Shown piece after piece: positions 8,114 to 11,261 of a stretch of DNA of 64,000 bases. Position numbers and translations under genes: made by a program. Positions within the stretch are counted from its first letter, which is position 1; every line of letters begins with the position of its first letter. Below the pieces are notes generated by a model that saw only the letters and a program-made list of their open reading frames with translations, searched no databases and had not been told where the DNA came from. The stretch is from NCBI GenBank assembly GCA_030681615.1, contig JAUXSA010000145.1:1-64000 (forward strand), written 5' to 3'. Source of the DNA: Bacteroidota bacterium. GTDB lineage: Bacteria; Bacteroidota; Bacteroidia; B-17B0; Aurantibacillaceae.

Positions 8114-8175
8114 AGTTTTTTTAATCATTTAACAAAAAATGAAAGCCCCAAAGCAGTTCTTTGACATTTTCTTGT

Positions 8176-8183
8176 TAACTTTG
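8176..8183 (+). promoter_or_regulatory. -7 element of the metal locus
   Basis: TAACTTTG matches TAnnTTTG. Initiation 5-7 bases downstream would fall near 8189, only about 8 bases before the first codon expected for the HYC_CC_PP-like protein. The mRNA would be leaderless or almost so. Confidence 0.55.
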
Positions 8184-8196
8184 ATATATCAACTCC

Positions 8197-8595
8197 CTTA
8201 AAAAATATTTATTCGGCTTAATTGTAACAGCCTATGTTATTTCGGCTGTTGGCATTCCAATTTATTTACATTATTGTGGTGGCGAACTTGAAAAAATAAA
8301 TTACGTTGTTAAAGGTACCAGTTGCTGTGGCGGAGAGGAAGACCATTCAATACCTGAAGATGACGATTGCTGCAAGGACGAGAATGTGGTACTTAAAAGT
8401 AACCCCGACTTTACACTTAAACAATTTAACAATTATGATGTTGTAAAGAATTTTTGCGATATTTTTTATGTAGCCCTTCCTTTTGCGGGCCATACTTACA
8501 TGGCTCCTACCCGTTCTAATTTTGCTTCTTTAAAATCACCTCCGCCAAAGCTTCAAACTACTTTGGTCATTTCTACTTCTGTACTCAGAATTTAA
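8197..8595 (+). CDS. HYC_CC_PP-type small protein, no canonical start codon
   Basis: The frame from 8185 to the stop at 8593-8595 encodes a hydrophobic N-terminus (KKYLFGLIVTAYVISAVGIPI), then LHYCGGEL, CCGGEED, DDDCCKDEN and a late SPPP. That order (HYC, paired cysteines, prolines) matches the small HYC_CC_PP proteins that Bacteroidota carry beside HMA proteins and metal-type TonB receptors. An in-frame TGA at 8182 closes the frame upstream, and no ATG, GTG or TTG occurs before a GTG at 8386, which would remove the conserved half. The start given (CTT at 8197, before the two lysines) is a guess. Either a rare start codon is used, or the ATG has been lost or misread. Confidence 0.6.
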   Translation, partial: LKKYLFGLIVTAYVISAVGIPIYLHYCGGELEKINYVVKGTSCCGGEEDHSIPEDDDCCKDENVVLKSNPDFTLKQFNNYDVVKNFCDIFYVALPFAGHTYMAPTRSNFASLKSPPPKLQTTLVISTSVLRI

Positions 8596-8660: not shown

Positions 8661-9014
8661 ATGAGAACTATTATATTATTTATAGCATTATTTATAACAT
8701 TAACATCAAACGCACAGGATAAAAGCGTTGTAAAAACCTCTACTATTTCGGTAAAAGGTAATTGCGAAGAATGTAAAAAACGTATTGAGAACGCCGCCGA
8801 TATTAAAGGCGTGAAACTGGCCGTGTGGGATGAAGTTACACAGGCTCTTACTGTAACTTACAAAACAGATAAAGTTTCAATAGAACAAATTGAAAAAGCT
8901 ATTGCCGCCAGCGGACATGATGTTGGCGCAGTTAAGGGCAATGATGCGAAGTACAACAATCTTCCTGATTGCTGTAAATACCGTGATAAAAAATGTGAGC
9001 TTCCTAAAAAGTAA
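8661..9014 (+). CDS. Exported heavy-metal-associated (HMA) domain protein
   Basis: A 117-residue protein with a signal peptide (residues 1-19, MRTIILFIALFITLTSNAQ) and an HMA ferredoxin-like domain at about 25-95. The metal-binding CxxC is Cys35 and Cys38 in GNCEECKKRIE. A short tail follows with LPDCCKYR (Cys104, Cys105) and Cys112, which may add ligands. A longer frame reaches back to 8595, but the ATG at 8661 gives a clean signal peptide and is preferred. Such proteins bind copper or a similar soft metal in the periplasm. It stands 3 bases before the TonB receptor gene and probably hands metal to or from it. Confidence 0.85.
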   Translation: MRTIILFIALFITLTSNAQDKSVVKTSTISVKGNCEECKKRIENAADIKGVKLAVWDEVTQALTVTYKTDKVSIEQIEKAIAASGHDVGAVKGNDAKYNNLPDCCKYRDKKCELPKK

Positions 9015-9017
9015 AAC

Positions 9018-11261
9018 ATGAAGATCAGGTATTTACTTGCTTTATTTAGCATAGTAAATATACTATGCGTTAAAGCGCAAGTTAAAGGCAAGGTGGTTGA
9101 GATCTCTCAAAAGAAGGATACCACAGTTGTGCCAGGCGTTACATTGGTATGGGATAAAACTTCCATTGCCACCACTACAGATAAGAACGGAAATTTTAAA
9201 TTAAATACTTCTCCGCAAACCGATCGCCTTATTATTAATGCTATTGGTTACAAGAGCGATACCGTTAGCGTAACCGATACAAGTAAATATCTATTACTTG
9301 TATTAAAGAATGGCGTTGATCTGCAGGAAGTACAAGTTGTGTATTACACAAACGGTACCGAAATTTCTTATTTGAATCCTATTAAAACAGAGATATTAAA
9401 TGAGCGCTCGCTCATGAAAGCGGCCTGTTGTAATTTGTCGGAAAGTTTTGAGACCAACCCAAGTATTGACGTGAATTTTGCAGATGCCGTTAGCGGAACA
9501 AAACAAATTCAAATGTTGGGGCTCTCGGGACAATATGCGCAAATTACAAAAGAGAACATGCCTTACATGCGCGGCCTTGCCGGAAATTACGGGCTCACTT
9601 TTATACCCGGCACATGGATCCAATCTATACAATTAAGTAAAGGTGCAGGCTCTGTGATAAATGGTTACGAAAGTTTTACCGGACAGATAAATACAGAACT
9701 TCAAAACCCCGAGCATTCTGATAAAGTAAATTTTAATGCTTATGGTAACGAGAACGGAAGAAATGAATACAATTTAAATTTAGCGCATCGCGTTAATCAA
9801 AAATTTGCAGTAGGGCTTTTAAATCATGTAAGTTACAATCCATTGGTGCAGGATTTTAATGGCGATGGGTTTGCAGATATACCAACCGGTAAGCAATATA
9901 ATTTTATGAATAAATACGCTTACAATAATGGTAAAAGTTTTGAAGCGCAGTTTGGTGGGTCGTATTTAAAAGATACTCGCAATGGTGGACAATTTAAACA
10001 GACGATCAAAAATTATAACGATACGGTGCCGTTATACAAAATTGGTATTGATAATGAAAGATGGGAAGTGTATAGTAAAACAGGTTTTGTATTTAGGAAA
10101 AAACCCGCTACCAGTATGGGTTTACAGCTTTCATATTTAAACCACGATCAGGTTAATTTTTATGGCAATAATAATTACACAGGCTTGCAAAAAACATTTT
10201 ATGCCAACTACATTTTCCAGGGAATAATTAGAACAACCGACAATACTTATAAGATTGGTGCCAGTTTTTTAAATGATGCTGTAAATGAAACATTTGAATT
10301 GTATAAATACAAACGCCTTGACCAGGTTGCAGGAACATTTTTAGAATTTGCACACAACCGTGGCGAAAAATTTAATGTCATTGCCGGCATTCGTGCAGAT
10401 TACCATAATTATTACGGTTTGTTCTTTACCCCGCGTTTACATTTGCGTTATGCATTTACACAAAATTCGGTACTTCGTTTTAGTGGTGGCAGGGCTTTGC
10501 GCACTGCTAATATTTTTTCGGACAATTCTTATTTAATGGCCTCATCAAGAGAATGGATCGTACAAAGTTCTGATCTTAGCATGCCTTATGGTTTAAAACC
10601 AGAAGTAGGTTATAATTACGGTTTGAACTATACACAAAAGTTTAAAGTCAATTACCGTGATGCTTATATTACTTTGGATGTGTATCGTACTGATTTTAAA
10701 GATCAGGTAGTGGTTGATGTGGATAATAACACGCAACAAGTGTTGATCTATAATTTAGATGGCCCCTCCTACTCTAACACCATGCAGTTTGAATTTAATA
10801 TGGAACCAAAAAAACGTTTCTTTATTAAAACTGCTTACCGTTATGTAGATACAAAAATGGAATTTAAACAGGGTTTAATGCAAAAAGCTATGGTATCAAA
10901 ACACCGTGCCTTTATTAACTTTAGTTACGAAACAAAGAACAGTCACTGGCAATTTGATGCTACTGGGCAATACAACGGCGCTAAACGTTTACCTTCTACA
11001 ACAACTAATCCTACAGATCTTCAGCGCGGAGAATACTCTCCTGAATTTTATAATGTATTAGGACAGATAACTTATTTAACCAAAATATCAAAAGCAGATT
11101 TTAATATTTATTTAGGAGTAGAAAATGCGTTGAACTATAAACAAACAAATCCAATAGTTTCAAGCGATCTGCCCTTTAATAAATATTTTGATGCTAGTAT
11201 GGTTTGGGGACCTATTTATGGAAGAATGTTGTATTTGGGATTGAGGTTGAAGATAAAGTAA
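9018..11261 (+). CDS. TonB-dependent outer-membrane receptor, metal-associated type
   Basis: A 747-residue receptor with a signal peptide (1-21), a carboxypeptidase-like regulatory domain at about 22-100 (GVTLVWDKTSIATTTDKNGNF), a plug domain at about 115-230 and a C-terminal beta-barrel ending in aromatic/hydrophobic alternation (MLYLGLRLKIK). The plug begins with a cysteine pair (KAACCNLSESFETNPS), typical of receptors found beside HMA and HYC_CC_PP proteins. It would import a metal complex using TonB energy; copper is my best guess but is not shown by the sequence. It is the last gene of the 8197-11261 unit and is followed by a palindromic repeat. Confidence 0.88.
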   Translation: MKIRYLLALFSIVNILCVKAQVKGKVVEISQKKDTTVVPGVTLVWDKTSIATTTDKNGNFKLNTSPQTDRLIINAIGYKSDTVSVTDTSKYLLLVLKNGVDLQEVQVVYYTNGTEISYLNPIKTEILNERSLMKAACCNLSESFETNPSIDVNFADAVSGTKQIQMLGLSGQYAQITKENMPYMRGLAGNYGLTFIPGTWIQSIQLSKGAGSVINGYESFTGQINTELQNPEHSDKVNFNAYGNENGRNEYNLNLAHRVNQKFAVGLLNHVSYNPLVQDFNGDGFADIPTGKQYNFMNKYAYNNGKSFEAQFGGSYLKDTRNGGQFKQTIKNYNDTVPLYKIGIDNERWEVYSKTGFVFRKKPATSMGLQLSYLNHDQVNFYGNNNYTGLQKTFYANYIFQGIIRTTDNTYKIGASFLNDAVNETFELYKYKRLDQVAGTFLEFAHNRGEKFNVIAGIRADYHNYYGLFFTPRLHLRYAFTQNSVLRFSGGRALRTANIFSDNSYLMASSREWIVQSSDLSMPYGLKPEVGYNYGLNYTQKFKVNYRDAYITLDVYRTDFKDQVVVDVDNNTQQVLIYNLDGPSYSNTMQFEFNMEPKKRFFIKTAYRYVDTKMEFKQGLMQKAMVSKHRAFINFSYETKNSHWQFDATGQYNGAKRLPSTTTNPTDLQRGEYSPEFYNVLGQITYLTKISKADFNIYLGVENALNYKQTNPIVSSDLPFNKYFDASMVWGPIYGRMLYLGLRLKIK

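Follow-up and report, generated by a model that had tools for sequence, protein, structure and literature searches.

The window, by which we mean the whole stretch of 64,000 nucleotides that was analysed, carries a gene of the HYC_CC_PP family that has none of the usual start codons at its expected beginning, preceded by recognisable promoter elements and followed on the same strand by two further genes:

8128..8134, + strand: TTTAACA element (TTTAACR), a putative promoter element or regulator site upstream of the -7 box, present in 38 of 51 loci
8176..8183, + strand: predicted -7 promoter element TAACTTTG, 6/6 match to TAnnTTTG
8188..8190, + strand: probable ATC start codon, its A being the predicted transcription start (ATC 16, ATT 6, ATA 4, TTG 1 in 27 homologues)
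8188..8595, + strand: HYC_CC_PP family protein gene, 135 aa, supported by its NF047658 match and its dN/dS
8661..9014, + strand: gene for an HMA (MerP/CopZ-like) metal-binding protein, with an ATG start and Pfam PF00403 above cut-off
9018..11261, + strand: TonB-dependent receptor gene, with PF00593, PF13715 and PF07715 above cut-off

The predicted protein scores 43.9 bits against the NCBIfam model HYC_CC_PP (NF047658), whose curated cut-off is 28, and shows the features of that family, namely the HYC motif, the paired cysteines, the prolines and a hydrophobic N-terminus that, judged by eye, is signal-like; a Pfam search assigned it to no Pfam family. In an alignment of 25 sequences (22 of the 27 closest homologues and three others) H28, Y29, C30, the pair C46 C47 and the pair C61 C62 are invariant. 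The preliminary description of this DNA had called attention to the missing start, and the sequence confirms it: an in-frame TGA occupies 8182-8184, the frame is open from 8185 to 8595 (136 codons), and the first in-frame ATG, GTG or TTG (hereafter NTG) is the GTG at 8386, codon 68 of the frame. Translation from this GTG would leave 69 amino acids and would remove both the N-terminal hydrophobic segment and the HYC motif, as had been correctly anticipated. Among the 55 non-overlapping open reading frames of at least 95 aa in the window, this is the only one in which the first NTG lies beyond codon 32, and the homology of the related proteins extends from codon 1 (8188). From codon 5 onward, dN/dS is 0.11-0.20 between the window genome (G000) and G019, G006 and G025, and 0.13 and 0.14 in other pairs, with 0.27 and 0.48 in two very close pairs; these values therefore indicate that the gene is under purifying selection. 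The reading as a pseudogene, which the preliminary description had tied to frameshifts or stops in relatives, is rejected.

Homologues were sought in 150 related genomes, many of them in fragmented assemblies; 85 gave matches, and 106 of the 108 listed matches were analysed, leaving out a fragment that begins at query residue 42 (G074:C131) and a match with an internal stop (G031). Among the 27 closest homologues (E <= 1.1e-26, a cut that was chosen after the codons had been seen), codon 1 is ATC in 16, ATT in six, ATA in four and TTG in one (G035), and in none of them is it ATG. The same-site comparison in close strains that the preliminary description had proposed consequently gives ATC, ATT or ATA (ATH) in 26 of 27, the first two bases being kept in all but G035. 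The stretch from 33 to 19 codons before the HYC-type motif lacks an NTG in 21 of these 27 vs none of the other 79, all of which have an NTG in the start region. The 26 ATH genes belong to two genera of one family (20 to genus g1, six to genus g8); in g1, with matches at E <= 1e-15 in 25 of 40 genomes, the cases without ATH are G035 (TTG), G020, G026 and G027 (ATG) and G028 (GTG). Orthologues in the sister genus g6 have TTG mostly, with ATG or GTG in a few, and of 30 loci fetched from across the class all 28 that could be parsed have an NTG near the expected N-terminus. Members of NF047658 elsewhere thus differ in having an NTG in the start region, ATH being confined, within the genomes searched, to the g1/g8 branch. 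In a protein tree that takes in the sequence from codon 5 onward and has long branches, 26 of its 50 inner branches being drawn open, the ATH codons interchange at least eight times without passing through ATG, and the switch between ATH and NTG requires five changes, many forks being poorly supported.

The position of the start can be narrowed further. Counting the codon directly before codon 1 as codon 0, a stop is found at codon -1 in 10 of the 27 (and, in one of these ten, G034, as TAG at codon 0), so that in those ten genomes the start is not upstream. An in-frame NTG is present upstream in four of the 27: TTGs in G035, a TTG inside the promoter box in G001, a TTG in G022 and an ATG in G009. 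In 26 of 27 the second base of codon 4 (8197) is T; the codon is otherwise variable, nearly any hydrophobic codon being accepted there. The upstream stops and the coding constraint at codon 4 together place the start within codons 1-4, and the sequences indicate that codon 1, the ATC at 8188, and not 8197, is most likely the start. The preliminary description had considered a non-NTG start on a leaderless mRNA at either ATC 8188 or CTT 8197; the first of these options receives strong support from the comparison and the second does not.

The promoter evidence points to the same codon. The -7 element that had been described as perfect, TAACTTTG at 8176-8183, does match all six specified positions of the consensus TAnnTTTG. 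In 18 of the 26 ATH homologues a box matching at least 5/6 positions ends exactly 4 nt before codon 1, and such boxes occur in these loci at a background of 783 in 83,688 positions (0.9% per position); loci that depart slightly from this pattern are G001 (box at gap 3), G004 (gap 5) and G009 (a 4/6 box at gap 4). In Flavobacterium psychrophilum the -7 box maps to positions -12 to -5 (PMC9723704), and in F. johnsoniae 4-5 nt between the box and the start site are reported (PMC6847099). With these spacings a gap of 4 nt would put position +1 on the A of the AUH, or one base later, and the F. psychrophilum spacing predicts the RNA 5' end at 8188. The boxes are further supported as real promoters by the TTTAACR element, which occurs in 38 of 51 loci and has a best-scoring -7 box 37-38 or 48-49 nt downstream in 38 of 38, although boxes are tied in eight of the 38 and the loci are related and so not independent. 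The two spacings differ by about one helical turn, and the distance in the window is 48 nt. The element may be a regulator or UP-type site. In five ATH homologues (G017, G018, G022, with a 4/6 match only, G046 and G052) the best box lies 15-18 nt upstream, which predicts leaders of about 11-14 nt, so that AUH is not strictly tied to the leaderless state.

The arrangement is not limited to the HYC gene. A survey of about 1.59 Mb from four relatives, which with the window makes about 1.65 Mb and is a small part of each genome, comprised 1,459 open reading frames, 1,014 of them having a homologue in a second genome. A perfect box at gap 4 stands before ATG 19 times (2.8 expected from codon frequency), before GTG six times (0.7 expected), before TTG never, and before ATC six times (1.3 expected); of the six ATC sites three belong to HYC itself and one is directly followed by an ATG codon. 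ATT (5 observed, 4.7 expected) and ATA (4 observed, 3.2 expected) are not enriched behind perfect gap-4 boxes in this survey. When orthologue pairs were surveyed, eight sites had ATH in both species (five in HYC, one in miaA and two in a gene with an ATG a few codons on), and at 22 sites of the same geometry both species had other codons, 19 of the 22 having an NTG within six codons downstream.

Two further genes recur with this geometry. The DUF7033 gene, which has a match in 39 of 40 genomes, begins by our reading of the sequences with ATH, mostly ATC AAT, in 27 of the best 30 loci (L341-L370); in 24 of these 30 the ATH lies at gap 4 from a TAATTTAG-type box, one of the 24 (G002) having an ATG directly before its ATT, and in 25 of the 30 the frame is free of NTG all the way between the upstream stop and codon 12. 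For miaA (IPP transferase), with a match in 37 of 40 genomes, the codon at gap 4 in the best 30 loci (L311-L340) is ATH in ten, GTT in two, TTG in one and AAA in one, and nine of the 30 lack an in-frame NTG up to codon 14; of the ten ATH loci, an in-frame TTG occurs at codon -11 in those of G000, G019 and G034, and an ATG at codon 3 in that of G003. In many other species miaA has an ordinary NTG start. The start region of miaA varies between species (ATC, ATT, GTT ATT, TTG, GTG, ATG), and in G006 and G029 the predicted 5' end carries GTT. The window genome's own copies carry ATC in DUF7033 (L343) and ATT in miaA (L316). A gene for a Fer4_19/CDGSH protein has ATG in G006 and ATC in G007, both after TAATTTTG-N4. 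Other leaderless-type genes keep ATG across species, for example that of the MTSFDNPA protein in 4/4 surveyed genomes, and for this reason the use of AUH seems specific to particular genes and not a matter of neutral drift of the third base. The conservation of the ATH start, and its presence in other genes of the genus, lie beyond what the preliminary description had in view.

The infC gene of the window genome (L145, 2133-1498, - strand) lacks an NTG among its first codons and presents an ATC after GCGGAGGCATCT, with a GGAGG-type Shine-Dalgarno (SD) sequence, and AUC initiation is therefore probably used in this genome. Bacteroidota are poor in SD sequences, and such a sequence at infC is unusual there. 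As to the initiator tRNA, whose loop can presumably be recognised by three G-C pairs around CTCATAA, an altered form was also considered: initiator-type CAU loops are found in eight of ten genus genomes, ARAGORN called tRNA-Met(CAT) in six of the seven initiator-type loci tested, and a match with a GAT loop in G030 was not called as a tRNA. The loop was not found in the assemblies of G000 and G018, which may reflect an assembly gap; the search of G000, in which 150 of 324 candidates were scored, yielded 25 tRNAs, a coverage that cannot show absence.

Against this background, the alternative that fares best is that ATH matters as a weak start only and that the leaderless state is incidental. 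The five ATH homologues with predicted leaders of 11-14 nt and the ATC of infC with its SD sequence are in keeping with such a proposal, but the 4-nt gap in 18 of 26 ATH homologues, repeated in DUF7033 (24/30) and miaA (10/30), would then be left aside, and we regard it as rather unlikely. Much less credit can be given to an internal start yielding a shorter protein, either in the region of codon 12, which is ATG in five g8 genomes, or at GTG 8386, the first NTG in the window's frame: codon 12 encodes I, V, L, M, A, C or F in the 27, K-K-Y is found almost invariably at codons 5-7, codon 4 is itself under coding constraint, and the GTG would sacrifice the N-terminal segment and HYC. It is harder still to accept that translation begins upstream, in a different frame running from ATG 8139 to the stop TAA 8199, and shifts by +1 into the HYC frame. 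By reading of the sequences, the window and G019 do have a 20-codon open reading frame ending beside an A run, but in the same reading G006 has the ATG and lacks the stop there, the reading frame ends prematurely in G034, G007 and G062, is missing from G037 and is a different one in G025, and the -7 box inside it would start the RNA after its ATG. Finally, although the assembly is in 199 contigs and one substitution turns ATG into ATC, the proposal that a sequencing error or mutation has removed an ATG at 8197 or nearby can practically be dismissed, because ATH recurs in 26 genomes whose proteins are as little as about 40% identical and purifying selection acts on the gene (dN/dS 0.11-0.20), while ATG, which at 8197 would have made the gene ordinary, is never found at codon 4 (0/27).

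We thus favour, with a probability of roughly 0.85, an intact HYC gene whose leaderless mRNA is translated from the AUC at 8188, a weak start. Codon identity, position and promoter spacing are conserved. RNA polymerase would use the TAACTTTG box and begin transcription on the A of this AUC, giving a leaderless mRNA of the form 5'-AUCAACUCC..., on which the initiator tRNA (anticodon CAU) would pair with AUC with a mismatch at the third base, the first residue presumably being fMet. With AUH instead of AUG, initiation would be weak and probably sensitive to IF3; in E. coli, IF3 is described as disfavouring both non-AUG starts and leaderless mRNAs (PMC2268962), from which we infer that leaderless AUH genes should be doubly sensitive.

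The consequence may be that the weak start caps or regulates the amount of a cysteine-rich, probably exported HYC protein relative to the HMA protein and the TonB receptor encoded downstream. In 25 of 26 ATH loci the genes follow one another as HYC, HMA protein, TonB receptor, the remaining locus ending at a contig edge, and this conserved order suggests a role of the HYC protein in the handling of metal, perhaps copper. As a broader and tentative extension, against which the odds lie, ribosomes of this lineage might initiate on leaderless mRNAs by means of 5'-AU alone, with any third base, the 5'-AUH genes (HYC, DUF7033, miaA, CDGSH) forming a weak-start class. Were this the case, AUH leaderless genes could respond together to the levels of IF3 or of 70S ribosomes, and other leaderless genes would retain AUG for strong expression.

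Weak AUH starts are known from other bacteria. The infC and pcnB genes of E. coli start with AUU (PMC4245954), and infC of Staphylococcus aureus starts with AUA, such starts being described as holding expression low in a manner modulated by IF3 (PMC13009471); the same source presents the AUU of cvfC1 and the AUA of ccpN as conserved non-canonical starts. The outputs it gives are about 10% of that of an AUG reporter in poor medium and, for ccpN, up to 30% of AUG output in rich medium. It is by analogy with these S. aureus genes that we suppose the HYC start to be held weak. The HYC gene resembles them in its conserved AUU, AUC or AUA (26/27). It differs in that S. aureus infC is described with an extended SD motif, and cvfC1 and ccpN with an extended SD in a 5' leader, in another phylum and other gene families (PMC13009471), whereas the predicted HYC mRNA has neither leader nor SD, no GGAGG-like sequence being present in the 60 nt upstream of ATC 8188 in the window.

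From leaderless bacterial mRNAs the HYC gene would take the 5' end at or beside the start codon, with the difference that the usual 5'-terminal AUG gives way to AUC in the window's gene and, in 26 of the 27 closest homologues, to AUH. Leaderless mRNAs make up 5.5% of those with mapped transcription start sites in F. psychrophilum (PMC9723704). Leaderless translation in E. coli is reported to need AUG (PMC5622118), and some tabulated leaderless genes begin with GTG (PMC3160421). How unusual repeated AUH use is can be gathered from an analysis that, as given in PMC5622118, found one change from AUG to AUU in 61,358 ancestral AUG starts. In the open-access literature we found no report of conserved leaderless AUH starts, no report of the trait in Bacteroidota and no publication on HYC_CC_PP. 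The conserved combination of AUH and a leaderless mRNA looks new, since the AUH starts described in these sources carry a strong SD and the leaderless mRNAs of E. coli are said there to need AUG. Two weak features would thus be combined and conserved across a genus and several genes, in a setting where the AUG rule is directly testable. A practical corollary is that gene finders restricted to NTG would truncate or miss proteins with AUH starts throughout the lineage.

Two minor observations concern other weak starts. Among the 79 outer homologues of HYC_CC_PP (L029-L110), 46 show GTG or TTG as the furthest-upstream NTG of the expected start region and 43 contain an ATG at some point within it, as if weak starts were favoured across the family. 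A pseudouridine synthase gene of G019 (L203, 3456-4109, - strand) and its G006 orthologue have CTG where G007 has TTG, their first in-frame NTG being an ATG inside the conserved region.
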